This document shows positions 2,438 to 30,465 of a stretch of DNA of 34,433 bases, piece after piece. How positions within the stretch are numbered: position 1 is the first letter of the stretch; every line of letters starts with the position of its first letter. The stretch lies in the IMG/VR virus record IMGVR_UViG_3300025097_001755, positions 1 to 34,433 of that record; one strand, given 5' to 3'. The translations under genes and the position numbers were made by a program. The notes beneath the pieces are model-generated. The model had not been told where the DNA came from. It did not search any database and saw nothing but the letters and a program-made list of their open reading frames with translations. The DNA is from a virus.

Positions 2438-3049
2438 TTAAATTATGTGGTCGGCGATACCATACTCAACCGCTTCTTCTGCAGATAAATAGATGTTAAC
2501 CTTGCGTTCCAGCATTTTTTTAAGCTTAGTCTCGGTTAATTTTGTTTCCGCAACCAAGCAGTTGATGTACATCTGTTGAAGATTTTCTATTGCGTCCATC
2601 TCATTCATCATATCATGCAAGCTACCAGCATTACCGCCCATCACAGAATGAATCATGACTCGGCAGTTCTTCCCGATAAAGCGGCTTCCTTTTGTGCCGG
2701 CGGCGAGTATCAAAACTCCAGCAGACATAACCTTTCCGAGCCCACACGTGTGTATCTCTGTTTCACTGCGAATGGCGCGCATAAGATCGTACAGCGCAAA
2801 CATATCGTCAGCATTACCCCCATAAGTGGAGATATAAAATAAGATAGGGCGATGAGTGCGAGGATCCTCATTCATGTGATTGAGTTCATTAAGGTATAGC
2901 AACGCGTGGCTAACCTCGGCAATCTTCTCGGATGAAACCTCGGCAAATAGTCCTATGGTGCGTAAGTCGGGCTCTCTTTTCTGTGTTGGGGCTGGTGGGT
3001 GTTTTTGAGCCTCTTCGTTGGATATCAGCTTTTTTATCTTTTTAATCAT
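2438..3049 (-). CDS. ClpP-like serine protease with Asn in place of catalytic Asp
   Basis: A 203-residue member of the ClpP/crotonase-fold protease family, which in phages often serves as head-maturation protease. Visible motifs are FYISTYGGNADDMFALYD (the family ISxxGG strand), nucleophile Ser109 in KVMSAGVLILAAG, and His134 in RVMIHSVMGG, 25 residues later as in E. coli ClpP (Ser97-His122). Aligning the C-terminal LSAEEAVEYGIAD with E. coli LSAPEAVEYGLVD puts Asn185 where Asp171 of the triad should be. An Asn at this place is known in Listeria ClpP1, so activity may be weak or partner-dependent rather than lost. The basic N-terminal segment (MIKKIKKLIS...) could be a propeptide. It lies between a small membrane protein and the 569-aa protein, near an acidic scaffold-like gene, so a prohead protease role is plausible. 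A second, triad-complete ClpP-like gene lies at 11060-11665. Confidence 0.9.
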   Translation of the reverse strand: MIKKIKKLISNEEAQKHPPAPTQKREPDLRTIGLFAEVSSEKIAEVSHALLYLNELNHMNEDPRTHRPILFYISTYGGNADDMFALYDLMRAIRSETEIHTCGLGKVMSAGVLILAAGTKGSRFIGKNCRVMIHSVMGGNAGSLHDMMNEMDAIENLQQMYINCLVAETKLTETKLKKMLERKVNIYLSAEEAVEYGIADHII

Positions 3050-4523: not shown

Positions 4524-4852
4524 AAGTCCGGGTGCTCTTGCTCAATAAGGTCAAATATGTTTTCTATATCACCTTCGTTAAAGCCGAGTTCGTTCATTGT
4601 CGCTTCTCCTTGATCGCGGAGGCGGCGAGATTTCTTTTTAATCCTCGGAGACTGCTCTTTCACTTCGTCAACAAACTGTTGCAACACGGGATCGTCATTA
4701 ATGTAGCCGGTAATGATTGCTCTAAAGAATTGCCCCTGTTTAAACCCATCGTGTTTGAGTTTAAGAACAAGCTTGGCGTGACGATGTTCGTTGTCTGAAA
4801 ATACCACGCGCTTATTGAGCTTACCATAGTCTGCTTCACCTTCATCGCTCAT
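4520..4852 (-). CDS. Small hypothetical protein, possibly ribbon-helix-helix-like
   Basis: A 110-residue charged protein of unknown function. The stretch KRVVFSDNEHRHAKLVLKLK followed by HDGFKQGQFFRAIITGYIND (about 15-53) has the strand-helix-helix rhythm of small DNA-binding proteins, then a Lys/Arg-rich linker (PRIKKKSRRLRDQ) and an acidic helical end. I chose the ATG at 4852 rather than the upstream TTG at 4858 because AGGAG lies six bases before it. The stop of the preceding IMPDH/GMPR gene and this ATG share one base (TGATG). Its 3' end overlaps the sigma-like gene by four bases, suggesting the pair work together, perhaps in regulation; that is inference. Confidence 0.82.
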   Translation of the reverse strand: MSDEGEADYGKLNKRVVFSDNEHRHAKLVLKLKHDGFKQGQFFRAIITGYINDDPVLQQFVDEVKEQSPRIKKKSRRLRDQGEATMNELGFNEGDIENIFDLIEQEHPDL

Positions 4853-5880
4853 CACCAACTCCTCGACAGGATATGTGTCCTACTCTCGCTCAATCCTGAT
4901 GTAGTCTGTCTTACAAATTGGGCTTTAGCCTGGAGTTCCACAATCGTTCGGGCGCCTGAATAAGATAGTCCAGAACGAATTCCTCTCTCAATATCTTCCA
5001 ATACTGCACCCACAGGTCCGCGGTACGGAACACGCGTTGCAACTCCCTCAAACGAAGAGTATTTACCTCGCCAACAAATCTGTGCCTCTTTGCTGGCCAT
5101 TCCCCTGTAAGCTTTCCATTGTGTTCCATCGGGGCTCCTCTGTAGTGGTCCTGGAGTTTCGTCCGTGCCCGAGAGCAAAGAGCCGACCATCACTGCATCT
5201 GCGCCGGCAGCCAAGGCTTTCACCATATCACCAGAGTTCTTAATGCCACCGTCAGCGATGATCTTTACATCACGGTCGGTCTTGGCGCACTCGAAGATTG
5301 TCTGTAAGCCGGGTAAGCCGTGGCCGGTCTGAATTCGTGTGGAACAAATAGAACCACCACCAATATTACAGCGCACACTATCTGCACCCCAATCCGCGAG
5401 ATCGTTGACCCCTTGGAGAGTTGCGACATTTCCTGCCATGATGTGTACACTATCGCCAAACTCATTTCGAAGTTTCTGAAGCGCGCGTTTCACCATCGCA
5501 TGATGACCGTGAGCTACATCAACACAGAAAAAGCCGGCGCCGGCGGCGATCAACTGGCGTGCTCTCTCCAAATAGTCTCCATTAACCCCAATCGCCGCAC
5601 CAATTTGGGGGACAGCCCCTGTTTCTAACATAAGCTGGTGTATTTGTTCACATTGGGAAGCGGGGGTATTGTAGCGGTGAACCACACCTGTACCGCCGGC
5701 AGTCGCCATGGCTAGCGCCATGCGAGTGCCCGTGATAGTATCCATCGGCGAAGCAATAATAGGCAACGTTAGCTTGATATTCTTTCCTAAATCGGTGCCA
5801 ATATCAATCTCCGTGCGAGAGTCGATGTCCGAATACTGGGGAACCAGGAGTACATCATCGTACGACAGGGCCCTGTTCAT
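4852..5880 (-). CDS. IMP dehydrogenase / GMP reductase family enzyme
   Basis: A 342-residue TIM-barrel purine nucleotide enzyme. Motifs seen: [13 protein letters not shown] at the N-terminus, [12 protein letters not shown], phosphate-loop region [20 protein letters not shown] with catalytic Cys179 and Thr181, [21 protein letters not shown], and the active-site flap [14 protein letters not shown] with Glu278. There are no CBS domains, and the length is that of GMP reductase (about 345) rather than bacterial IMP dehydrogenase (about 490). The shortened flap also favours GMP reductase (GMP to IMP, NADPH), but the C-terminal [10 protein letters not shown]...SGLSESRTH resembles IMP dehydrogenase. 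Direction therefore cannot be settled. Either reaction would alter the guanine/adenine balance during phage DNA synthesis. The ATG overlaps the preceding stop by four bases. Confidence 0.93.
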
Positions 5881-7538: not shown

Positions 7539-7782
7539 TGGCTAATGCCTCCTGTGTTTTTTTAATACAATCTGGGCAGAATAGTGTAACTGACTCTTTT
7601 TCTTCTCGAACCACCACCTTCCAAGAAAAGACCATCTCTCGGTCCGACTTATCGAAAGACGCTGAACAAACGGAGCAACTCTCTGGCAAGTGTCCAAACA
7701 TCATCAACTTGTCCTCCATCATTTGCTGGCTATCTGCCTTTCGGCGCTTCGCATCCGCTGTCCTGCGCTGTTTTCGATTCAT
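7528..7782 (-). CDS. Small zinc-ribbon protein
   Basis: The frame opens at 7872, but the upstream part overlaps the methyltransferase gene; the ATG at 7782 (NRKQRRTADAKRRKADSQ) overlaps that gene's stop by four bases, as elsewhere in this chain, and gives 84 residues. Cys pairs in SCSVCSASF and LFCPDCIKK, about 38 residues apart, form a CxxC...CxxC zinc-ribbon. The basic N-terminal helix would suit nucleic-acid binding. It lies between DNA methyltransferases and thioredoxin. Exact function is unknown. Confidence 0.83.
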   Translation of the reverse strand: MNRKQRRTADAKRRKADSQQMMEDKLMMFGHLPESCSVCSASFDKSDREMVFSWKVVVREEKESVTLFCPDCIKKTQEALANAS

Positions 7783-8270
7783 CGTGTTAGTACTCCCATC
7801 GATGGAAGAGCACCCAGCGCCCACGTGGGGTGCTTGCGGAATACCACCACGGCAGATGGGAATGGCGCACAATTCTTGCTATCACCAAACTTGAGGCGGC
7901 CCTTAATGAAATAGACATACTCTGCCTTCATCACATAGTCATGCCAATACTTGGTATCGGTTCGTGCCGGAATCAACATAACGACCTTGGTGTCTGCGTC
8001 GGCTTCGGCTGATTCATAAGCCTTCTGAATCCACTGATCAATACCGCGGCCATATGGGGGATTAACAAAAGCCGTATGCCCTGTCCAATCCTTGGTAAGC
8101 CCGTCGTCTGCTTCTGTGAAGAATTTTGCACACTTTGTGTTTTCTTCTGACGCACACGGATCAAGACTAAAGGGTCCAAATCTCCAATTTAGTTTGTCGA
8201 AAAATTCTTGGGGTGTCGACCATTTGCCAGTGGCAGAGCTAAACATTGTCTTTTGCGTTGCTTTATTCAT
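7779..8270 (-). CDS. Phage Dam-type N6-adenine DNA methyltransferase
   Basis: A 163-residue enzyme of the phage Dam family (DNA N-6-adenine methyltransferase type common in lambdoid and other phages). Recognised features are MFSSATGKWSTPQEFFDKLN at the N-terminus, FSLDPCASEENTKCAKFF, and the catalytic motif IV in TAFVNPPYGRGIDQW, followed by VVMLIPARTDTKYWHDYV and a C-terminal AVVVFRK strand. These match the family in order and length (about 160-190). It probably methylates adenine in a short DNA site using S-adenosylmethionine. It overlaps the next methyltransferase gene by four bases and forms a three-gene group with the predicted endonuclease at 8991-9581, so it may protect phage DNA against that or host enzymes. 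Confidence 0.93.
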   Translation of the reverse strand: MNKATQKTMFSSATGKWSTPQEFFDKLNWRFGPFSLDPCASEENTKCAKFFTEADDGLTKDWTGHTAFVNPPYGRGIDQWIQKAYESAEADADTKVVMLIPARTDTKYWHDYVMKAEYVYFIKGRLKFGDSKNCAPFPSAVVVFRKHPTWALGALPSMGVLTR

Positions 8271-8998
8271 TTGCTTTCCTTCAATTCTTTAATTCGGTGA
8301 TTGGTTATGGAAACATACTTTGGATCCAGTTCAATACCAATATAGTGGCGATCGCTCTGTATAGCTGCCAGTGCCGTCGTACCAACGCCTATGCACGAGT
8401 CTAAAATAACATCGCCTTCGTTAGAATAAGTTTCGATTAAATATTTAAACAATTCAACCGGCTTTTGAGTAGGGTGAAGAACCTTACCTTCCGATTCTGC
8501 TGTCTTAAAGTATACTACAGTTCTTGGATACCGCAGACCTGTATCATTCTTCACCAAGGTAGAGACTTGAGAACCATACACTTCAGTAGGGCGATGGGCG
8601 CGGCCCTTGTTGTAGGGGGTGCCTTGCCGCATACGCGGATTGTATACCGGAGGCTTGCGATAAAATACACAGACATCCTCATGGGCTCTCATTGGCATGC
8701 GTTTTGCATTCAAGTAGCCTGTTGCCTTTGACTTTTCCCATACCCATGTATATTTGAAATTTTTAATATTAGAATTTATAAGCTGGCTCGTAAAAGGCTG
8801 CGAGGCTGTGAAGACCATTGGCGCATTTATCTTACACACTCGATTATACTCCGCCCATAAAGGCTCAAAAGGTATAATAGTGTCCCACTTGCATTGAGTC
8901 GTGCCGTACGGCAAGTCGCAGAGTACCATGTCAATCGAATTATCTGGCAACTCCTTGAGTCGTTCGAGGCAATCCCCAGTTAAAATCTCATCAATCAT
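8267..8998 (-). CDS. DNA N4/N6 methyltransferase, beta-class order
   Basis: A 243-residue site-specific DNA methyltransferase. Catalytic motif IV (VLCDLPYGTTQCKWD, about 25-39) comes before the AdoMet-binding motif I (DVILDSCIGVGTTALAA, near 202-218), the order of beta-class N4-cytosine/N6-adenine enzymes. HPTQKPVELFKYLI before motif I is the usual family signature, and the target-recognition region lies between (residues about 95-170). Whether cytosine-N4 or adenine-N6 is modified cannot be read from DLPY alone. It lies directly after the predicted restriction-type nuclease gene (8-base overlap), the usual partner arrangement of type II systems. Confidence 0.95.
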   Translation of the reverse strand: MIDEILTGDCLERLKELPDNSIDMVLCDLPYGTTQCKWDTIIPFEPLWAEYNRVCKINAPMVFTASQPFTSQLINSNIKNFKYTWVWEKSKATGYLNAKRMPMRAHEDVCVFYRKPPVYNPRMRQGTPYNKGRAHRPTEVYGSQVSTLVKNDTGLRYPRTVVYFKTAESEGKVLHPTQKPVELFKYLIETYSNEGDVILDSCIGVGTTALAAIQSDRHYIGIELDPKYVSITNHRIKELKESK

Positions 8999-11059: not shown

Positions 11060-11665
11060 TTAGCCAAAGTCAAATTCAACATTAGTATATATTTTCAGCT
11101 TCGGAACGTGCGCATGGTTGATGAGGTTGTGGCGCGAGGCCTCTTCATAGTCCAAAAACCAATCAGCGTGCCCCTTCTGGTGTACAATTTTCAAGAAATA
11201 GTCTTCCTGGTGGCCACAATTTCTCGCCATCATTCGATAGACCTTTTTATTGAGGCGTTCAGTTTCTTCCGCAGAGGCCTTTACTTCTTCTACTTTCCCC
11301 CAGTTCATTGAAGATACGTCGTGAATCATAAGGGTGGCATCGGGATCCATATATCTGCGCCCTTCGTCGCCAAAGCTCGCAAGGATGGCGCCGCAACTCA
11401 TTGCCTTTCCCTGAATGATGGTGGCCACGGGGAGAGTAGCGTGGCGGATATCTGATATCATAGACATCAAACTATAGACTTGTCCACCATAGCTGTCGAT
11501 GATAACCGGTATCACGGGCTGTCCGGTGTTTTGAGCTTTGCACATTAGCTCTGAAAATTCCTTTGCGGAGTCCTCTGTGAACTTTCTCACTCGAATGACA
11601 ACAGGGAGATCGTCTACTAACTCCACCTTTTTGAACAGGGCGCTATGGTCTACTATTACGTTCAT
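11060..11665 (-). CDS. ClpP-like serine protease with complete triad
   Basis: A 201-residue ClpP-family protease. The strand IPVIIDSYGGQVYSLMSMIS matches the family pattern; nucleophile Ser90 lies in GKAMSCGAILASFG, His115 in TLMIHDVSS (25 residues on, as in E. coli), and the third residue Asp168 in HADWFLDYEEA at the place of E. coli Asp171. Thus, unlike the ClpP-like protein at 2438-3049, all three catalytic residues are present. The two differ widely outside the motifs. It lies between dnaE and a J-domain gene, far from virion genes, so a regulatory or housekeeping role with host ClpX/ClpA is possible. The start follows TAGGAT at fair distance, and the gene begins only four bases after the dnaE stop. 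Confidence 0.9.
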   Translation of the reverse strand: MNVIVDHSALFKKVELVDDLPVVIRVRKFTEDSAKEFSELMCKAQNTGQPVIPVIIDSYGGQVYSLMSMISDIRHATLPVATIIQGKAMSCGAILASFGDEGRRYMDPDATLMIHDVSSMNWGKVEEVKASAEETERLNKKVYRMMARNCGHQEDYFLKIVHQKGHADWFLDYEEASRHNLINHAHVPKLKIYTNVEFDFG

Positions 11666-11669
11666 CGTT

Positions 11670-14600
11670 TTATCCTAATAGTCTAAATGTTTTGCCAATT
11701 GCATATGTGGAAAATCCCCAGTTCTCATCGTACTTAAGCTTTGCCATATAGGGTCGATTAATACGGATGGTATCCTTGTGTGGCTTAACGCCCCAGCATC
11801 GAATCCTCGTTGATTCATTATTTGAATCAATCACTTCCACAATCCAATATAACTTGCCATTCTTGGTCTTGCGCTCGATAATCTTTCGAGGAATAAACCA
11901 GCACAAAGTCAACGCGGGGTCGAATTCAGAGATTGGTGGAACAAACTTCTCCTTAAGTTTTTCGATCTTCTCTGTTCCTATGACCAAGTTGATGGGGAAG
12001 ACTCCAGTTAAATCTGTCTTAAACTGAATAATCTCCTCGTGACTGAAGTCTCCTTCAGGGCTGTAAGTTTTGATATTCTCTGCCAATCTCTTGAGGTTTT
12101 TGGGACGGTCAACAATGCATGCAGACCAGAAGTGTTTCATTCCCGTAAAACGATCATCAATAAGTTCATCTAGGGCGCCCCCTCGACAAAGAGCGTCCAA
12201 GCACTTCTTGTTCAGCTTGGAATACACGACTTCCTCGTTGAAAAGCAACTCTTCTGCGGTGTTGAACGGGCGATGTTCGAGAACCTGCTGGATAGCCGAG
12301 TCGCCGAAACCCTTGATTGAAGTCAGAGGCTGGATAAGTGTCTTTCCATCTTCGCTAATCTCCCAGACGGTACCGGACTTGTTGATATCGAGAGGCGCAA
12401 TGTCAAATCCATATTTCTTTGCAATGTTGATCGCCTTCTCTTTTCTGCTCTCTGGCTCTTTGTCGAGGAACGCTGCCATCCACTCTGCGGGATAGTAGTT
12501 CCACAGCCATGCGCACTGGAACGAGATGATGCTGTAAGACACGGCGTGTGATTTATTGAAGCCATAGCCGGAGAAGAACTCGAACTTATCCCAGAGCCCT
12601 TGAGAGACATCAACGTTAATACCGTTCGCAGCACAGCCATTGATAAACTTATCATGAAGCTTTCCCTTAACGCTATTCTTGCCGGTGCCCTTCTTGGTCA
12701 ATACCTTGCGAAGCATGTTGCCCTCATCGAGGGTCAGTCCGCCAAGCCTGTGAGCCAACAAGGCGATTTGCTCCTGGAAAATAAGGAAACCATAAGTCTC
12801 CTCGGTGATTTCCTGTGCAGCCTCCGAGATATATGAAATGCGATGGGGGTGATTTTTTGCCTCTACATAATCTGCATCAACACCCGCCGACAGGGGTCCC
12901 GGTCGGAAGATAGAAGTAACTGCAGAGATGTCAACAATGCTATTCGGCTTGGCGCGCTTGCAGAAGCCTTGGGCGCCCTGCTCTGTGAATTGGAAGATAC
13001 CAGCCCACTTGCCAGCGTGGAAAACATTCTCATAGACCTCCTGGTTATCGAAATCCAAATTGTCTGGGTGGAGGGTTTTTTCGTAATATTCGCGGACCTG
13101 GGCGAATGTTGGCTCCGCAACCCCGTGGTGGCGGCGCAAGATGTGCTCGATGCAACCCTCCATCATCTTGAGAGTGGAGAGCCCAAGCAAATCGAACTTA
13201 ATGAAACCCATCGGCTCTAGGTGTCGAACGTTCTGTCCTTCTGCCCATGGAGCCTGACGAACACCCCCACTATTGATTAGCGGCATGCTACGGTCCAGTT
13301 CCTCGGCAATAACCACACCGCCAGCATGACGGCTGCAGGAGCGAACTTGTCCGACGAGGCCTTCAACATGTGCCTTAACTGTGGGGTATTTATTCAAATA
13401 CTTTTGGAGCGATGGCGAAAACTCCATCACCTCTTCCCAAGTGGGCGCATAGATACCTGCTCGGATCCCGTGCTTCTTCTTTGCTTCGGGAGTGGCTTCG
13501 CGGATCATAACAGAAGTAACGGTGTTAGCCTCTGTAAAAGGAATATCATAAAGTTTAGAGATGTCCTTGATCAAGCTGCGCAATTGCAAAGTGTTCCAGT
13601 TGGAAATAGGGGCAACACAATCCTTCCCCCACATGTCAACTAGCTTCTCTTTGATCACCATGCTATCTGATATGTCATAATCGATATCTGGATAGTCTGT
13701 GGCGTCTGAACGCAAGAATCGTGAAAATAGGAGTCCATATTTAATTGGATCAACTTGGGTGATACCCAACACATACGCAACCAGTGAGCCGGCAGCCGAT
13801 CCTCGGCCGGGTCCAGTAAGCATCATGTCTGTTGCGGTGTCAGCGATCGCCTTCATTGTCAAGAAGTACTTGCAAAACCCACGATCATCGATAACATCAA
13901 GCTCGCGCTTTAGGCGTGCGGTATATTCTTCATTCTCATGGAACCCGAGTGCCTCTAATCCGCCAGTGGCGGCGCGGAACAAGGCTTGTGTTGCCGTCAG
14001 ACCTTCAGGAACAACAAAGTCTGGGAGACGCACCGTCGTATCTGGCAGAAAGGTTTCGATCCTCTCATAAGCGATCTGGTGTGTTCGCTCTATGCTTTGT
14101 CGCACAAGTTCGTCGTCATATTCTGTTCCCTGCAAGGCGCAATACTTCTTGTATGACTCCCACATCTGATCGCCATTCTTTGGGTAAAGTTCATAACCAA
14201 TGACGTCAGTTGATTCAGGGAGAACGCTTTCGTCTTCGCCTTCGTCCGTCTTCCATGATGGCTTGCCTTTTCCAAGCCAACCAAGCTGCTTATACATCTC
14301 CCGGTCTTTCCATGAGCCTGGGGTGGGGTAGTGACTATCTGCTGTGGAGATCAGCTTAAGTCCGAATTCTTTAGCGATCTCAATAACGTATTGATTCAAC
14401 TCGTGTTGTTCCGGGATGTTGTTCCACTGTAACTCTGCGTACCAGCGATCCCCAAAGATTGACACCATTTCGCGGGTGGTTTCGCGCATAGCCTCTAGGA
14501 CGGCTTCAGAGCCCTCCTCTCGGTTCTCCCAGTAGTTGCCGGCGTACACCCCTCCCAAGCACGCAGACGCAGCGATAACGCCCTCCGAGTGCTCTCGAAG

Positions 14601-15113
14601 GAGGTCGTAGTCCATTCGTGGGTATCTATAGAAGTATTCTTCTGTGTAGCTCTTCGAGACTAGCTTGAACAAGTTGTTCAATCCAGTTTGGTTCTGCGCG
14701 AGGAGGATCAAGTGGCGCCGGCGCTTAAGGATCGGCTGGGAGGCTTTTGTATCTCCCTCATCCTCTGTTGTGGCACCTGATTGGGTCGTCTTTTTGGTGG
14801 CCCGGGCTCTTTTCTTGTCTGCCATGGCTTCATCATAAGCCTCTCTCCACTCCTTAACAGATGTGGTGAAATAGGCCTCGACCCCGAAGATGGGCTTGAA
14901 ATCCTTGCCTTCGGCGCGCATCTTCTTGGCATGAATCACTTGATAAGCTAACCCGTTCATGTTTCCATGATCAGTTAACGCGAGAGCAGCCATGCCGTTC
15001 TCGTATGCGAAATCCATGTGGTCTTGTGGATATCCAATCGCGTCGAAGATCGATCCTGCAACGCTATGGGCGTGTAGCCCAACAAATTTAATTTTTGACG
15101 TGGTTCTTGTCAT
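11670..15113 (-). CDS. dnaE: DNA polymerase III alpha subunit (DnaE type)
   Basis: A 1147-residue family C replicative DNA polymerase, nearly the length of E. coli DnaE (1160). Domains in order: PHP domain at the N-terminus (VGLHAHS at 11-17, LALTDHGNMNGL, IFGVEAYF); palm with TGPGRGSAAGSLVAYVLG (433-450) and YPDIDYD, whose Asp476 and Asp478 are catalytic, plus KFDLLGL with Asp641; fingers with FSGYGFNKSHAVSYS; helix-hairpin-helix region (LTSIKGFGDSAI); and a C-terminal OB fold. A low-complexity insert (TTQSGATTEDEGDTKASQ) lies near residues 108-126. GGAGGGA before the ATG is a strong ribosome site, and a promoter precedes it. A complete host-type replicase in a phage that also carries a PolA-type enzyme is uncommon. 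Confidence 0.97.
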   Translation of the reverse strand: MTRTTSKIKFVGLHAHSVAGSIFDAIGYPQDHMDFAYENGMAALALTDHGNMNGLAYQVIHAKKMRAEGKDFKPIFGVEAYFTTSVKEWREAYDEAMADKKRARATKKTTQSGATTEDEGDTKASQPILKRRRHLILLAQNQTGLNNLFKLVSKSYTEEYFYRYPRMDYDLLREHSEGVIAASACLGGVYAGNYWENREEGSEAVLEAMRETTREMVSIFGDRWYAELQWNNIPEQHELNQYVIEIAKEFGLKLISTADSHYPTPGSWKDREMYKQLGWLGKGKPSWKTDEGEDESVLPESTDVIGYELYPKNGDQMWESYKKYCALQGTEYDDELVRQSIERTHQIAYERIETFLPDTTVRLPDFVVPEGLTATQALFRAATGGLEALGFHENEEYTARLKRELDVIDDRGFCKYFLTMKAIADTATDMMLTGPGRGSAAGSLVAYVLGITQVDPIKYGLLFSRFLRSDATDYPDIDYDISDSMVIKEKLVDMWGKDCVAPISNWNTLQLRSLIKDISKLYDIPFTEANTVTSVMIREATPEAKKKHGIRAGIYAPTWEEVMEFSPSLQKYLNKYPTVKAHVEGLVGQVRSCSRHAGGVVIAEELDRSMPLINSGGVRQAPWAEGQNVRHLEPMGFIKFDLLGLSTLKMMEGCIEHILRRHHGVAEPTFAQVREYYEKTLHPDNLDFDNQEVYENVFHAGKWAGIFQFTEQGAQGFCKRAKPNSIVDISAVTSIFRPGPLSAGVDADYVEAKNHPHRISYISEAAQEITEETYGFLIFQEQIALLAHRLGGLTLDEGNMLRKVLTKKGTGKNSVKGKLHDKFINGCAANGINVDVSQGLWDKFEFFSGYGFNKSHAVSYSIISFQCAWLWNYYPAEWMAAFLDKEPESRKEKAINIAKKYGFDIAPLDINKSGTVWEISEDGKTLIQPLTSIKGFGDSAIQQVLEHRPFNTAEELLFNEEVVYSKLNKKCLDALCRGGALDELIDDRFTGMKHFWSACIVDRPKNLKRLAENIKTYSPEGDFSHEEIIQFKTDLTGVFPINLVIGTEKIEKLKEKFVPPISEFDPALTLCWFIPRKIIERKTKNGKLYWIVEVIDSNNESTRIRCWGVKPHKDTIRINRPYMAKLKYDENWGFSTYAIGKTFRLLG

Positions 15114-23533: not shown

Positions 23534-24688
23534 TTAATCCTTTACTGGGACGGTTAGATCTTCTGGATCTGCGTAGAATGTGTCGGCTGTTCCTTCTCGG
23601 CGATCGAACTTTTGCACGATCTCCTCCTCCATTAGACGCACGACATTACCTTTAAATTCATCGTCAGATGTAATTAATTCAGTCCACTTAGATGGCTGAA
23701 ACTTTTTAGTGTACCCGTCGGGCATCTTGAGTGTATACCAAGCTCCAGCGCTGGTCAAACAAGAAGAGCCCTTAATGGCGTCAAACCACGACTCCTCATC
23801 TCTAATGCCGATGTCATCGGTTCCCCACATAATGCGGAATGCGCAAGAGCGACCTTGTGTTCCAAAACGCGACTTTTCAAGTCTAATCTTAACTTCAGAA
23901 CCAATGCGAAAACCCTTCTCATCAACAACAAAGGCGGCCTTCGCCTTCCTGCCTGTTAGCCAGATGCGCAGCGAATATGCATAGTGCATAGCCTTACCGC
24001 CAGGAGTGGTATACGGCGTTACCATCGCAATTTGTCGCGCCATCGGACCTTGAGGGATATTAGTCTTTAGTTGGTTGAGAACCAAGAAGGTCGCCTTTTT
24101 GTCCGCGATCGGAATAACCAATTTAGACATCCCCTTTGCAAGAATGCGTGCTTTCACTGCCATCGAAGATTGTGGATTGAAGTCGCCTTCTACGTCTGAT
24201 ACTGCGGGAGTGAATGCTAGCGAATCCCAGATAAAGAGCATCTGCTCCTCTGTCGCTCCTAGGATTTCTTCAATTGTCTCCAGAACGAACTCAACCGAAG
24301 CTGCCTGAACATACATGAGGCGATCTAAATCACACCCAGCGCGCTCAATAAAGGTTGGGTCAATTGCGGATTCAGAATCAAAATATACCACCATCATACC
24401 CATCTTTTGGGCATTTGCTGCGATCTGGACAGCCATATAAGATTTACCAGTTGATTCTAGCCCTGCTATCTCTGTAAGTTTCCCTACTGGAATGCCTGAT
24501 AATTGCCCCTTGCAAACAATAGAATCGAGCCATCGAGAACCTGTGGGGATCCACTGCTTTACTTCGGTGGGGTTGTCTCCCGACAAATTGTGTGCGACAG
24601 TTACCCCTGCCTTTTTGTTAACAAGACTCATCAAGTCTTGCATCGATACCTTTCCAGGCTTGTTTTTAGATTTTACTTTACGTGCCAT
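23534..24688 (-). CDS. RecA/UvsX-type recombinase
   Basis: A 384-residue strand-exchange protein that coats ssDNA and drives homologous pairing. Features (numbered from the ATG at 24688): Walker A GLESTGKS (76-83), VVYFDSESAIDP with the catalytic Glu at about 106, Walker B MLFIWDSLAF (about 150-159), FLVLNQLKTNI (RecA VNQLR motif), loop region with TPYTTPGGKAMHYAYS, and the acidic end typical of RecA. The order is RecA-like, but MPDGYTKKF and the C-terminal part are phage-specific. ATG at 24688 is used because AAGGAG is six bases before it; a GTG at 24691 is adjacent. Its start lies within the end of the dam gene, and it has its own promoter. Confidence 0.95.
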   Translation of the reverse strand: MARKVKSKNKPGKVSMQDLMSLVNKKAGVTVAHNLSGDNPTEVKQWIPTGSRWLDSIVCKGQLSGIPVGKLTEIAGLESTGKSYMAVQIAANAQKMGMMVVYFDSESAIDPTFIERAGCDLDRLMYVQAASVEFVLETIEEILGATEEQMLFIWDSLAFTPAVSDVEGDFNPQSSMAVKARILAKGMSKLVIPIADKKATFLVLNQLKTNIPQGPMARQIAMVTPYTTPGGKAMHYAYSLRIWLTGRKAKAAFVVDEKGFRIGSEVKIRLEKSRFGTQGRSCAFRIMWGTDDIGIRDEESWFDAIKGSSCLTSAGAWYTLKMPDGYTKKFQPSKWTELITSDDEFKGNVVRLMEEEIVQKFDRREGTADTFYADPEDLTVPVKD

Positions 24689-25535
24689 CACTTACTCCTT
24701 TGGTTTCATTTAGTATAACACAATGTTCGCGCGGTGGCAAGTTGGTTATGATAATTTCTGAAGATTTCTTACTTTTGTTCATCCCGTAGGTCCATTCTGC
24801 TGTGATAATTTCATAGTCTTTATACATTTCTCTAATCTCCTCACAGTCATTATATGACATAACCCACCGATCTCGTGTTGATAAGATAGAATGAAGCCGC
24901 TCGTGCTCAAAGCCTTTGTGGAGGTCGCCGTTAACGCCGTATAGTGAGTTCTGACTGGTTTTAAGCATGTAAGGGGGGTCTAAATAGAGGAAGGCTTTGG
25001 GGTGGTTTAGAATGGCATCCTCGAAGTCTGCATAATCGACTCGGAAGTTTTCCGGCTTAAAATCCCGAAGGCGCTGAACTGAACTATCTGTGAATCGTGC
25101 TGTTGCAGCTTTCTCTGACCAGCCGCCGCTAAATGTTGCTCCGGAGAAGCTCGATCTATTGATGGCGTAGAACTTGGCTGCGCGCTCATAGCTGAACATG
25201 AATGAATCAGTCTTAAGATCCTCTCTAAAGCTCTGAAATGATTCTTTGGAGCATCCGACAACGCTGTTGCCGTTGCGATCAACGAAAGTTTCACGGAGGC
25301 TCTCTACCTCGTCAGCCAAGCGTTCGTTGTCCCCACATAAGGCGTTCCAAAACCAAACAAGTTGCTTCATCTTGTCGTAGCCGAATACCTTGATTCCCTT
25401 GTTGGCTAGTGCCATCTCGACGGAGCCACCTCCGAAAAACGGAGAGCACACCCGCTCAACATCATCTGGAATCAGCGGCAAAATGTGCTTAACTGCTCGT
25501 GTTTTGCCGCCGGGGTATCGTAATGGTGTCTTCAC
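24678..25535 (-). CDS. D12-class N6-adenine DNA methyltransferase (Dam-like)
   Basis: A 285-residue alpha-class adenine methyltransferase of the MethyltransfD12 family (T4 Dam, E. coli Dam). The N-terminal TPLRYPGGKTRAVKHILPLI and AdoMet motif I VCSPFFGGGSVEMALA come first, and catalytic motif IV AFLYLDPPYMLKTSQ near residue 185; NRSSFSGATFSGGW fits the target-recognition side. GATC is the usual site for the family but is not proven here. The start is GTG at 25535 directly after an in-frame TAA, with no clear ribosome site. The 3' end overlaps recA by 11 bases and contains the recA promoter. This is the third methyltransferase in the window, and the only one not next to the endonuclease. Confidence 0.94.
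   Translation of the reverse strand: MKTPLRYPGGKTRAVKHILPLIPDDVERVCSPFFGGGSVEMALANKGIKVFGYDKMKQLVWFWNALCGDNERLADEVESLRETFVDRNGNSVVGCSKESFQSFREDLKTDSFMFSYERAAKFYAINRSSFSGATFSGGWSEKAATARFTDSSVQRLRDFKPENFRVDYADFEDAILNHPKAFLYLDPPYMLKTSQNSLYGVNGDLHKGFEHERLHSILSTRDRWVMSYNDCEEIREMYKDYEIITAEWTYGMNKSKKSSEIIITNLPPREHCVILNETKGVSDGT
24712..24740 (-). promoter_or_regulatory. Sigma-70 promoter of recA inside the dam 3' end
   Basis: TTGCCA (24740-24735), 17 bases and TATACT (24717-24712). Both boxes lie in the last codons of the dam gene. The start near 24705 leaves a leader of about 17 bases with the AAGGAG ribosome site. recA and the lipoprotein gene would be expressed from it. Confidence 0.75.
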
Positions 25536-26279: not shown

Positions 26280-27047
26280 CTAGGACATCAATTCCTCAAA
26301 CGCCTTGTCAACATCATTCGTCGGCTTGGCGGAGTATTTTGTAGTCTCTTTGGAACGGCTCTCGGCAGAACCATCGCCGGAGAGTTGTTCATCTAGAATC
26401 GCGCCTACTTGATCGCTTGTCAGGCGTTCGAATAGGGTTTCGAACTCCGGGACACGATCCAGGAGGGCAGGGATGGATTCCGTGTCAGCGAGCAGGGGGG
26501 ATGTGTTTCGGCGCATCTTCAGACTCGTTTGTGGATAAGCACCAGGCTTATTAGGCTTGGTGTATGTGAGGGTGATATCGGTTCCTTCGTCGGAATCGGT
26601 AATATCACCATACTCTGGGTCGAGGATATAGCCCAGAAGAAGTTCATAAGCCTTCTTTCCGTATCCATAGACCTTGACGCCTTCGTCTTCACGACCGCGG
26701 ACTACCACAGGCGAGAAATAACGTTGACGCACGAAAAGTGACTTTGCAAGATTCTTGCTGTCCTCGTCGTTGTTGGAGGTCCCTTCGCGCCATAAAGCGG
26801 AAGCGAACTCGCAGATGGGGCATGCTTCGCCGTAATTACGTTTCGGGCAAAGAACACCACCACGATGTTCGCCCACATTATAGTGGAAAGACATCTCCTT
26901 GAGGGGGTCCCCGTCGTTTGTTGGAACGATACGAATGTCCGTATCGCCCTCGTCCGGTTTAAACCAGACTGATGGAGTGTTATCTCCGTTTCCTTCTCCT
27001 CGAAGGGATGCAAGCTTACGCCGCATCAGTTCCATATCAATACCCAT
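26280..27047 (-). CDS. Single-stranded DNA-binding protein, T4 gp32-like
   Basis: A 255-residue ssDNA-binding protein. The N-terminus MELMRRKLASLRGEG is the basic self-interaction arm. The core has a zinc knuckle formed by His and Cys in EHRGGVLCPKRNYGEACPIC (about 60-79), as in T4 gp32 (His-Cys-Cys-Cys), followed by FVRQRYFSPVVVRGREDEG, with aromatic residues that contact DNA. The end is acidic (NDVDKAFEELMS), the usual partner-protein docking tail. Ser/Thr-rich linker residues 222-243 precede it. AAGGAG sits five bases before the ATG. The gene has its own promoter and terminator, consistent with the large amount needed at replication forks. Confidence 0.92.
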   Translation of the reverse strand: MGIDMELMRRKLASLRGEGNGDNTPSVWFKPDEGDTDIRIVPTNDGDPLKEMSFHYNVGEHRGGVLCPKRNYGEACPICEFASALWREGTSNNDEDSKNLAKSLFVRQRYFSPVVVRGREDEGVKVYGYGKKAYELLLGYILDPEYGDITDSDEGTDITLTYTKPNKPGAYPQTSLKMRRNTSPLLADTESIPALLDRVPEFETLFERLTSDQVGAILDEQLSGDGSAESRSKETTKYSAKPTNDVDKAFEELMS

Positions 27048-27098: not shown

Positions 27099-27127
27099 AT
27101 TATGACACACTTGACGTAGCTTGTCAA
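27099..27127 (-). promoter_or_regulatory. Strong sigma-70 promoter of the SSB gene
   Basis: TTGACA (27127-27122), 17 bases and CATAAT (27104-27099). The TGA in the -35 box is the stop codon of the upstream tubulin-like gene (27126-27124). A palindrome CTTGAC-7-GTCAAG (27110-27128) covers the -35 box and could be an operator. The start near 27092 gives a leader of about 45 bases. Confidence 0.8.
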
Positions 27128-27960
27128 GCGTATTTTTGCACTACGTTAGTAAGGGCAACGCAGAACCCAAAATCATCAAATTCAGTTTCATAAATCGCAT
27201 ACGAAATTTTTCGGAAAGCGTTCCTTGGTTTTTGCTTGAGCAAATCGACCAACTTTTTGTGAAGCGTTCCATCGTTCTCCAACTTATCCCTGTTTATACA
27301 CATATAATAACATACATCGCGGTCCATGTCAAGTGGAAAAAGCCATTTTTCTTCTAAATTCTTCATATTAAGTAAACCGATGGTTCTAATTCGACAAATA
27401 TCAAGGGGCCGCGAGACCATTCCGATTTCCGGCTCATTGTGCTCAAAGAAGTTTAGATAATGAACAGTTGAGAAAATAGTGTGATTAAGCGTGGCGTAAT
27501 ACTTCTTAATAGGGACGTTTCCGAGATGGTTTTCGAGCAATTCGTTGCTAATCAGTGTTGCTGACTTCAAGAGCCCCGATCGTGCATATTCCTGGATCAC
27601 GCTGAATACCACTTTATCTACTAACTTCGGCATGCCCGTGAGAAGCTCTCCATCAGGCTTGATGTAAAATAACTCTACCTCGGCGTGTTTAAGCTGCTCT
27701 ATAACTCCGAGCGCATAATTAGAACTCATTGACGAGCCCACGACAAAGAATTGCACTCGTCCCTTGATTTCACTAAAAAACTTTTTAAGATTTGGGATAT
27801 TTTGCTCGTATTCTTCCGCTTCTTCGTGGCGCTTCAATCTAAATTTATATTTAGAGGTGCGCTCGACTGAACTATTAAGCTGATAGACTTTATAATTGTC
27901 GACTGCTTTGAAATTCTCTACTATTTTGGAAGCGGCGTTACCCAGTCCAACTACAATCAT
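27124..27960 (-). CDS. Divergent FtsZ/tubulin-like protein (putative)
   Basis: A 278-residue protein whose segments follow the order of the FtsZ/tubulin GTPase fold: MIVVGLGNAASKIVENF (first strand and loop T1, FtsZ IGVGGGGGNA), VYQLNS (second strand), VQFFVVGSSMSSNYALGVIE where FtsZ has GGGTGTGAA (T4), ELFYIKPDGELLTG (FtsZ VVTKPF), SATLISNELLEN (FtsZ IVIPNDRLL) and KKYYATLNHTIFSTVHYL (FtsZ dAFxxAD helix). The GTP loop glycines are largely replaced, so nucleotide binding may be altered. The C-terminal half has strand patterns (MCINRDKL...DDFGFCVALTNV) of the second domain. If real, it may be a filament or DNA-positioning protein as in PhuZ or TubZ phages. It is not a close relative of either. 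The start overlaps the next upstream stop by four bases. Confidence 0.85.
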   Translation of the reverse strand: MIVVGLGNAASKIVENFKAVDNYKVYQLNSSVERTSKYKFRLKRHEEAEEYEQNIPNLKKFFSEIKGRVQFFVVGSSMSSNYALGVIEQLKHAEVELFYIKPDGELLTGMPKLVDKVVFSVIQEYARSGLLKSATLISNELLENHLGNVPIKKYYATLNHTIFSTVHYLNFFEHNEPEIGMVSRPLDICRIRTIGLLNMKNLEEKWLFPLDMDRDVCYYMCINRDKLENDGTLHKKLVDLLKQKPRNAFRKISYAIYETEFDDFGFCVALTNVVQKYA

Positions 27961-29129
27961 AGATCCAACTCTTTCAGTTCGAAATAATCCGTACCAGCCT
28001 TTATTGAACTAAGGAAGCCATCTTCAAATGTTTCCTTAATTTCCATTATAATATCTCTGTCTTCATTGTTAAAGTCTATCACAATTTCATCATGAAGTAT
28101 ATGAGAAACAAAAGATTTTCTCTCTTCTAGCATTTTGTCTATAATAACCGCCTTGGAAAGAACGCGATCTGACGTTGAACTCTGAATCAGGTAATTGAGC
28201 GCCCTAAAGTCGTCCACCGCTATTTTGCGGTCATATGGCGTAGTAACAAACTCTCCATCATACCGGGCCTCGAGGATTTTTACTTTATTGTAGATTTCAT
28301 TAAGTTCCGGGTGATCTATTGAGTTGTAGAGCCAACTAAAGAACTCAACTTTGGCCTCATCCCGAGTCAAAGTGTTGGCAAACACATTCTTAGCATTCCA
28401 GTCGTGAATGTCGTAGTCGGGCTGTTCCTCGCCAGATAACTCCAAAAACATACGCACTTCAGCGCCATTATAATCTAATGCCACAAAAAGGTCGTTCTTT
28501 GGCTTCAGGAGCTTCCTAAACTCTTTCTTAACTGTTAGTATGGGGAACGAGCCGGGACGGGTTGTGAGGCGCCCTGTGACGGTACCAAACAGGTTGTAGT
28601 CAATGTAGGCATAGTTCTTGACCAGTTCTTGCGCTTTATTGCGCTCTATAGTCGAAAGCATCAAATGACGGCAACCATCGGTACTCAAATTGAGCCTATT
28701 GTACCTTATCTTATAGAGAAGTTTTTCGACGTCGCACAGGTGCTGGTAGTTCTTTGGTTTTTCGTAAGAATCAAAAACGTGTTCTGTGATTTGTGTTTTA
28801 ATCTCGCAAAAGCGTTTTAAGAAGTCATGAGGGACGAGATCGAAAATGCAATGATCATTTAGATTGACTTTTGCGATTTTGAATGTCTTCATATATGCGC
28901 GTAATCTGCGCTCGGTAGCGGATAGCTCCTCTGAATGCTCTTCAGAGCAGCATTGGGCCAATGTTGCGCCGTTGGCGTATAGCCACGCATATTCTACATC
29001 GGCGTCAACAGCCGAGCCTGTGTAACGCCAAGTGTGGGTCAAATCAGCCGGAAAATTGTCAAAATGTAGTTGCCCGTCCACATACACCCCAATACATTCG
29101 GATTTATCATCAATCGATTGAAAGTACAT
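27957..29129 (-). CDS. Short family A DNA polymerase, no exonuclease domain
   Basis: A 390-residue PolA-family polymerase. The palm opens with FGTVTGRLTTRPGSFPIL (thumb-palm TGRL motif, 182-199), motif A ALDYNGAEVRM (catalytic Asp219), an O-helix-like TRDEAKVEFFSWLYNS (Arg256, Lys260, Tyr268), ALNYLIQSSTSDRV, and motif C ILHDEIVID (His346-Asp347-Glu348). This is about two-thirds of the 600-residue Klenow size: no 3'-5' exonuclease motifs are present, and the N-terminal 120 residues are unmatched. Roles may be gap filling, repair or special-primer synthesis beside DnaE. It overlaps the tubulin-like gene by four bases and follows the unknown 444-aa gene by one. Key residues suggest it is active. 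Confidence 0.92.
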   Translation of the reverse strand: MYFQSIDDKSECIGVYVDGQLHFDNFPADLTHTWRYTGSAVDADVEYAWLYANGATLAQCCSEEHSEELSATERRLRAYMKTFKIAKVNLNDHCIFDLVPHDFLKRFCEIKTQITEHVFDSYEKPKNYQHLCDVEKLLYKIRYNRLNLSTDGCRHLMLSTIERNKAQELVKNYAYIDYNLFGTVTGRLTTRPGSFPILTVKKEFRKLLKPKNDLFVALDYNGAEVRMFLELSGEEQPDYDIHDWNAKNVFANTLTRDEAKVEFFSWLYNSIDHPELNEIYNKVKILEARYDGEFVTTPYDRKIAVDDFRALNYLIQSSTSDRVLSKAVIIDKMLEERKSFVSHILHDEIVIDFNNEDRDIIMEIKETFEDGFLSSIKAGTDYFELKELDL

Positions 29130-29130
29130 T

Positions 29131-30465
29131 TTAGTCCAAAATAGCTTGTTCGTCTTCGGGAAGTAGATCTTCAGGAATGAGATTCCCTCCCCATTCTGAT
29201 TTTTCCTTGGCTGCTATGCTTGCATAGCGATAGTTTGAAGGATTTGTGGTATCTTCTGCTCTCATAATTTCCATCTCTTCGCGAAGTTCATTAACCTTTT
29301 TAATATAACTGACTGAACCGATTTTGTCAAACTCTTTATTTATAATCGCTTCTAAATAGACGGTTAGGGCTATCGGAAGTCCCTGTGTGTTGGTGAGCGA
29401 TATTACTTCACCAACTATTTCATCCATTGCGGCATCTGTGAGTTCTGGCTTTTCTTCAAAAAGCCTCAAATACGTATAAAGCCGGAGAATTCTCATCGCT
29501 CCAGTGTCGCGTATCATTTCATTGACAGTGTATTCGCGTGGATAAACCTTTTTTACATGTGTTTTACCATTTCCGCAATCTTCAAATTTATCATAAGAGT
29601 ACACTTTACAAGAATTATACAGCGCCAGCAACGTAGTAGCAAAGTTTTTCAGATCTATAAAATTTGGATTAGCGTAGGCTCTTCGGAAAAGAGAATCCAC
29701 GCCATAATATCCATATCGCAGCGCAATTTCCTTCATCGCGTCTGATTCTAAATCTGCCACAATTCTCCAGGGTGTATTTAAGTCTACCATGAATCCATAC
29801 GAATTGCAAGTGTTAATATAAAAATCCCAATTTTTGCTTTTGATGAACTTTCTTACTTTCTCGTCATCGTCCTCATATTTCAAATCAGCTATCTCTATCG
29901 CTAGTCCCGTTGACATGATCGAACAATCTCTACTCTTAATAAACCCAGGATAGGTAAAGCGCGCTGTCTGACAACTGGTTTTTAAAATCGGAATCAATAA
30001 TTCAAGGAACTCTTCGAAATTTGAAAAACGCATCTGCTTGGACTTGAAAAGCCTTGCGATTTGGTCTATATAGCGTTGTCGATGATCTTGATATAATTTT
30101 TGAGGAGATATATGTGCCTTGTATACAACCAACTTGCTCAAATATGGGTCGTTTGTTGCAATTTGTGACATGGTGGCCTTTTTCTCAAACTGCCGGGACA
30201 TTTCATTGAAGATGTCCGCCACAAAGTTGACTGCTCTCATTGGTGATTCGCGGCGTAGGGGGTTTTTCAAGGATTTGAGGGCGCCCTTTTTCAATACAAT
30301 CGGCTGGAACGATCTCCCTACTCGACCGTAGAGCGCTTTCTCACCATAACTAAAATCAATTACGTTTTGTGGTGATTTATCTGTAACATAGGCCCAGTAA
30401 TACAACCTCTTCTGGAAAAGGTCTTTTGTTGACTCCCTGTTGTTTGGTGCAAAATATTTAGACAT
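29131..30465 (-). CDS. Unknown 444-aa protein, possibly virion-associated
   Basis: A 444-residue product of no recognised family. It starts MSKYFAPNNRESTKDLFQKR and is mostly helical with many aromatic residues; it has no signal, membrane segment or nucleotide motif. The stretch LAIEIADLKYEDDDEKVRKF and a long helical C-terminal third ending GGNLIPEDLLPEDEQAILD are its clearest features. It is separated from the giant upstream gene by 14 bases and from the polymerase by one, so it lies at the junction of virion and replication genes. The context favours a structural or assembly role; a terminal-protein-like role with the polymerase cannot be excluded. Confidence 0.83.
   Translation of the reverse strand: MSKYFAPNNRESTKDLFQKRLYYWAYVTDKSPQNVIDFSYGEKALYGRVGRSFQPIVLKKGALKSLKNPLRRESPMRAVNFVADIFNEMSRQFEKKATMSQIATNDPYLSKLVVYKAHISPQKLYQDHRQRYIDQIARLFKSKQMRFSNFEEFLELLIPILKTSCQTARFTYPGFIKSRDCSIMSTGLAIEIADLKYEDDDEKVRKFIKSKNWDFYINTCNSYGFMVDLNTPWRIVADLESDAMKEIALRYGYYGVDSLFRRAYANPNFIDLKNFATTLLALYNSCKVYSYDKFEDCGNGKTHVKKVYPREYTVNEMIRDTGAMRILRLYTYLRLFEEKPELTDAAMDEIVGEVISLTNTQGLPIALTVYLEAIINKEFDKIGSVSYIKKVNELREEMEIMRAEDTTNPSNYRYASIAAKEKSEWGGNLIPEDLLPEDEQAILD

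Follow-up and report, generated by a model that had tools for sequence, protein, structure and literature searches.

A predicted tubulin-fold protein with eroded GTP loops in the replication operon of uncultured marine T4-like phages whose relatives also encode an FtsZ-like protein

What is a tubulin-like gene doing between a DNA polymerase gene and a single-stranded DNA-binding protein (SSB) gene of a phage? Phage tubulins are known mainly as PhuZ, from nucleus-forming jumbo phages, and as TubZ, from partition systems. In a 34,433-base virus fragment (IMG/VR record IMGVR_UViG_3300025097_001755, positions 1 to 34,433; hereafter the window), an earlier note had proposed that a 278-aa product, here called D, is a distant protein of this type, with a degenerate GTP loop and replication genes as neighbours. 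The reading frame is present on the minus strand, with an ATG start, and so are the segments quoted from its product (IVVGLGNAA, residues 2-10; VGSSMSSNYA, 74-83; ATLISNELLEN, 134-144). The neighbours are also as described (Table 1), since Pfam matches identify a short, exonuclease-less family-A DNA polymerase (PolA) upstream and a gp32-like SSB downstream. This order is kept throughout the D loci that we collected, PolA lying directly upstream of D in 253/254 and SSB directly behind it in 249/250; some contigs entered the collection more than once, with different flanks, so that independent contigs are fewer than loci. The polymerase stop overlaps the D start in an ATGA, which suggests that translation of the two genes is coupled. 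A 444-aa gene upstream of the polymerase belongs to the same conserved block; its product has no match in Pfam or PHROGs and is the fastest-evolving among the genes compared (33-37% identity).

Table 1. Positions of D, its predicted landmarks and its neighbours in the window, and of C in relatives
Feature	Position	Strand	Evidence
D, 278-aa predicted tubulin/FtsZ-fold protein with eroded GTP loops	27124..27960	-	AlphaFold2, VIA-align, 169 aligned relatives
D T1 region, shortened (residues 5-11, GLGNAAS)	27928..27948	-	DSSP on model; alignment
D T4 position (residues 75-82, GSSMSSNY; FtsZ GGGTGTG)	27715..27738	-	169-protein alignment
D T6 asparagine N139, guanine-contact position in FtsZ and tubulin	27544..27546	-	169/169
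D H7 start (residues 152-159, KKYYATLN), guanine-pocket positions Y/F155 and N159	27484..27507	-	Alignment
D putative T7/H8 segment (residues 175-192, NEPEIGMVSRPLDICRIR)	27385..27438	-	Model and 169-protein alignment
ATGA overlap (4 nt), polymerase stop and D start	27957..27960	-	264/264 complete D genes begin ATGA
Short family-A DNA polymerase, 390 aa, adjoins D upstream	27957..29129	-	Pfam DNA_pol_A, E 8.3e-11
444-aa gene upstream of polymerase, same conserved block	29131..30465	-	183/183 loci with enough upstream sequence
gp32-like SSB, adjoins D downstream	26280..27047	-	Pfam gp32, E 4.2e-15; phrog_1192, E 2.7e-22
UvsX-like recombinase, replication/recombination block	23534..24691	-	phrog_97, E 6.7e-61
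C in relative L226	L226:4064-5203	-	
C in relative L227	L227:4058-5194	-	
C in relative L306	L306:7876-8991	+	

The rest of the window encodes a 5'-3' exonuclease, a DnaB helicase, a B12-dependent ribonucleotide reductase, GroES, an amidase and a dUTPase, and on these matches its gene set is that of a large T4-like phage. The same phage carries a DNA polymerase III alpha gene (DnaE-type, with a PHP domain; 11670-15113) alongside the family-A polymerase at 27957-29129. Two different ClpP-like proteases (2438-3049 and 11060-11665) and three DNA methyltransferase genes (7779-8270, 8267-8998 and 24678-25535, the first two overlapping) are also encoded; by Pfam, one methyltransferase is of the N6/N4 type and one of the Dam type, and the third falls in phage DNA methyltransferase families. 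A guanine-nucleotide metabolism gene, homologous to IMP dehydrogenase/GMP reductase, lies at 4852-5880 (PF00478, E 5e-104); the relatives of this phage encode two proteins of the tubulin fold. No tRNA genes were found in the 34,433 bases of the window.

Is D a tubulin at all? Searches of D or its alignment against Pfam, PHROGs, NCBIfam and PDB sequences recognised no family, and matches to uteroglobin, cysteine synthase and CoA-binding proteins were at chance level and were rejected. The tubulin family PF00091 matched none of 25 D family members (0/25) even at E 10 and gave no match in the window, the same search being positive in 13/14 control genomes. Likewise, hhalign with 38 D relatives gave a probability of 0.7% against FtsZ and 2.7% against seven PhuZ sequences, compared with 92% for FtsZ against PhuZ as a positive control; against FtsZ, PhuZ and the second phage protein C introduced below, nothing was significant beyond the first strand or helix H7. 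The FtsZ-core order and spacing claimed for six short segments of D thus drew no support from profile methods, but it did from the predicted structure. An AlphaFold2 model built from 25 marine relatives (pLDDT 87.1, pTM 0.87) has an alternating Rossmann-type N-domain, a 24-residue central helix H7 (residues 151-174) and a four-strand C-domain at 191-271 (strands 191-197, 215-223, 253-259 and 264-271, with helices between), and the order of these elements is that of FtsZ and tubulin. Foldseek returned 1,199 PDB matches, 545 of them with E <= 0.001 and with TubZ, FtsZ and tubulin leading; all matches listed were TubZ, FtsZ, CetZ or tubulin. VIA-align of residues 1-278 placed CetZ first (Z 21.9; 3.4 A over 257 aa), followed by TubZ (21.0) and FtsZ (20.1), all matches listed being of the tubulin superfamily with 257-272 residues aligned. 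In a viral structure library the best match was an 'FtsZ' from an uncultured Caudovirales phage. The model thus keeps the two-domain tubulin fold, at Z 20-22, and no unrelated family matched with confidence. We conclude that D belongs, by predicted structure, to the tubulin/FtsZ fold superfamily, within which it is divergent; its homology to tubulin rests on structure, because profile-profile comparison of sequences is not significant.

Does a protein with this fold also carry the GTPase apparatus? In an alignment of 169 distinct D proteins from the collected loci, T1 is so shortened that about one loop residue separates S1 from H1, where FtsZ has VGVGGGGGNAV (G5 is kept in 168/169 and G7 in 169/169), and no glycine-rich T3 loop is present. 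The degeneracy of the T4 loop that the earlier note had pointed out holds for the whole family, with a consensus of GSS[YFM]SSNY: the first glycine is invariant (G75, 169/169) and the others are gone, the following positions being S (120), S (151), Y/F/M at 78, S (160), S/A, N (161) and Y (159), and the PF00091 signature GGGTG[ST]G is not found. The positions around the base are kept. The T6 asparagine N139 and, on H7, N159, K152 and Y154 are each found in 169/169, Y/F155 is found in 165/169, and the T5 position has Y99, P102 and D103 without exception; the equivalences for N139, Y/F155 and N159 come from motif and secondary structure, not from superposed coordinates. In the GTPase family the T7 loop supplies a catalytic acid to the next subunit. 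The segment of D at residues 175-192 has no invariant acid, its constant positions being G180, P185, R/K190 (167/169) and R192. A motif alignment of LDICRIRTI in D with VDFADVRTV in FtsZ puts a basic residue at the position of the catalytic Asp, as in beta-tubulin. In the model, strand S7 starts directly after R190 and helix H8 is not formed, so that the T7 equivalence is uncertain and a lead only; R190 is accordingly less convincing as a straightforward counterpart of the beta-tubulin substitution at the catalytic position. Under either T7 alignment, the residue patterns indicate that D is missing the canonical GTPase apparatus, with its phosphate loops T1, T3 and T4 eroded and its guanine-pocket positions kept.

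The median dN/dS of D is 0.065 over 366 pairs (5-95% range 0.037-0.099), 49 positions are at least 98% conserved among the 169 proteins, and the reading frame is intact in all D genes found in long genomes. Because of this low dN/dS we regard the gene as functional and under purifying selection. D is also common: 84 relatives were found in a first scan of IMG/VR and 471 viral stretches in a second, and the phages that carry it are a widespread uncultured ocean group. No relative of D was found in 50,697 deposited phage records, PhuZ phages included, and none of D or C in 84,980 cellular genomes by scans that depend on short peptide patterns.

The tubulin-type reading stands as far as the fold of D is concerned, but D is probably not the sole tubulin, since relatives encode a second one, C, about 40 kb away. 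C emerged from a PF00091 search of long relatives, above the family cut-off, in two 195-kb genomes. It is a protein of about 380 aa with GVGGGGN and GGGGGTGSS motifs and a DSKD T7 loop. It matches FtsZ of Staphylococcus aureus with E 5.8e-12 in an alignment that extends through the T7 loop, CetZ with E 9.6e-10 in one that spans both domains, and TIGR00065 with E 2.8e-13, which does not reach the equivalog cut-off. On these sequence matches, C is a canonical FtsZ-like GTPase, homologous to FtsZ and with its loops intact; an AlphaFold2 model reached a pLDDT of 42, probably due to the relatives being too alike. An acidic N-terminal tail of about 60 residues is nearly invariant (FDFLPPAE...EDFGMVEDFGLQMEYSDED), the mean identity of C being about 91%. 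In L226 and the further relative L228, the products of several short ORFs, many of them, are unrelated but begin alike, for example with MKKLFENWRKxLNE or MKITKSQLKQIIKEEL; this common start may be a leader that targets proteins to the capsid or to a protease. A search of deposited phage records yielded no C.

How closely do the two genes go together? C is not in the D operon, its neighbours being SbcCD-like and terminase-type genes, and in all contigs with both genes (relatives of 44-196 kb) it is located 38-43 kb 5' of D, which for a 195,459-base genome requires a circularly permuted map. Where 43 kb or more follow C, D is present exactly once, in 9/9 contigs (G008-G011, G015-G017, G020 and G021), and where 38 kb or more precede D, C is present in 5/5 contigs, truncated at the end of the contig in three; shorter contigs do not reach the partner gene. 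Extrapolating from these relatives, the window phage itself probably encodes C, which is not visible in the window because its expected place is 31-37 kb beyond the right edge. Between viral contigs C is 86-99% identical, and in the same genomes D is 44-88% identical, so that D evolves much faster.

We tentatively favour, at somewhat short of an even chance, a reading in which D acts as a non-catalytic partner of C and, with its tubulin fold, either links C filaments to the phage replication machinery or caps them. D and C would then form a two-gene system in which C is the FtsZ-like GTPase with intact loops. D, which has neither phosphate loops nor a recognisable T7 acid, would probably have lost GTPase activity and have no GTP-dependent filament cycle of its own. 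Made together with the phage polymerase and SSB, it may sit at the end or interface of a C filament through a tubulin-type longitudinal surface, and may thus tie the filament to the replication machinery; phage DNA factories could thereby be positioned or organised. This proposal is consistent with the predicted fold of D, the erosion of its loops with the base pocket kept, the linkage of C and D, the PolA-D-SSB order and the purifying selection. By terminase, the closest two among cultured phages are Flavobacterium phage vB_FspM_immuto (T4-like, 47% identity) and Microcystis phage Mel-JY01, and they point the same way, having neither D nor C (PF00091 tubulin) at this sensitivity; immuto gp002, gp003 and gp078 were checked as hidden tubulins and gave no sign of being such. 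D is unlikely to drive segregation by itself, since the loops that GTP-driven polymerisation requires are missing. Several points weigh against the proposal. C is far more conserved than D, whereas an obligate alpha/beta-like heterodimer would predict similar constraint, and the faster evolution of D and the distance between the genes argue against an obligate 1:1 C-D dimer. Co-occurrence in one phage lineage can reflect shared ancestry and not function. Finally, C lies outside the window and is known only from relatives.

The strongest alternative, although on balance unlikely, is that D is a component of the replisome only, its tubulin fold serving as an accessory or tether for the family-A polymerase or SSB with no role in filaments. 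The invariant gene order and the ATGA coupling agree with this. The polymerase catalytic residues are kept, with D219, D347, K260 and Y268 in 103/103 and E348 and R256 in 102/103. Moreover, D and the polymerase diverge at similar rates between genomes (42-64% and 52-55% identity), faster than SSB, UvsX and DnaB. However, the tight linkage of C and D would then be a coincidence of shared ancestry. The replication block also works without D in immuto, where the order PolA-...-SSB-UvsX-exonuclease-DnaB is as in the D phages but two unrelated small genes stand in the place of D.

An improbable alternative is that D is a self-standing, polymer-forming tubulin with unusual nucleotide binding, which kept the guanine pocket and holds the phosphates with other residues. 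The essentially invariant N139, Y/F155 and N159, together with the T5 residues, would fit such a protein, but the near-absence of T1, the absence of T3, the lost T4 glycines and the want of a conserved T7 acid in either alignment speak against it. Slightly more improbable still is that D acts as a decoy, blocking host division by binding to host FtsZ at the longitudinal interface common to both. Phages do carry FtsZ inhibitors, and an FtsZ-like fold without GTP loops of its own is what a capping mimic would have; however, the phage FtsZ inhibitors known to us are small unrelated proteins, and the linkage of C and D would be left unexplained. Finally, the loss of the canonical loops might mark D as a decaying, non-functional paralogue, which we consider hardly credible since the dN/dS excludes decay and the conserved positions and open frames speak against it as well.

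Several known systems come close to D or to the C-D pair. CetZ and TubZ, the closest in structure to D, are GTPases with canonical loops, and TubZ partitions plasmid or phage DNA together with a DNA-binding adaptor; D shares 12-13% identity with them and is without their phosphate loops. A TubZRC partition system is marked by a TubR adaptor gene next to tubZ and by centromere repeats; the genes next to D are PolA and SSB. FtsZ has the same two-domain fold as D and is a homologue of C by sequence, but D has neither the GGGTGTG and T3 loops nor the conserved T7 acid, and its model has no helix H8. PhuZ of the phiKZ-like nucleus-forming phages (Chimalliviridae) resembles D as a phage tubulin-superfamily protein of about 300 aa. 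It keeps its nucleotide loops, forms GTP-dependent filaments and centres the phage nucleus (PMC13282480). D differs from PhuZ in being without T1, T3 and T4, in having no sequence similarity to it, in its place between PolA and SSB, and in the presence of a second tubulin. A search of four long relatives for phiKZ ChmA (gp054), run without a positive control, gave no match.

A parallel to the C-D pair is that of alpha- and beta-tubulin, Asgard archaeal ones included, in which two tubulin-fold proteins are encoded by one genome, one with and one without the catalytic T7 residue. At T7, alpha-tubulin has a catalytic Glu and beta-tubulin a non-catalytic Lys (PMC13371889). By motif alignment, C would correspondingly have DxxD and D [DE]xx[R/K], an equivalence that is uncertain for D, whose model has no H8. 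In contrast to D, however, both alpha- and beta-tubulin bind GTP, and D evolves much faster than C. It is possible, and we hold it with more reserve than the partnership itself, that the two proteins, with C as an active GTPase, make up a two-tubulin system, a phage cytoskeleton beyond those of the PhuZ phages. Here D would connect C filaments with the machinery of replication, as an independent counterpart of the alpha/beta pairing of catalytic and non-catalytic subunits.

Phage tubulins themselves are known, but the combination of a canonical tubulin with a GTP-loop-less tubulin-fold protein in a polymerase operon was not found in the papers and databases that we searched. Among open-access papers, we found none that reports a single phage with a pair of tubulin-fold proteins; a survey of jumbo phages from 2021 mentions two different FtsZ/tubulin types in a comparison between phages (PMC7824862). 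The marine phages described here, a large uncultured T4-like lineage, appear to have two tubulin-superfamily proteins, C very strongly conserved and D locked into the replication operon. If C and D work together, they would represent a second, independent route to the pairing of a catalytic tubulin with a non-catalytic one, and would suggest that the cytoskeletal organisation of replication extends beyond nucleus-forming phages.
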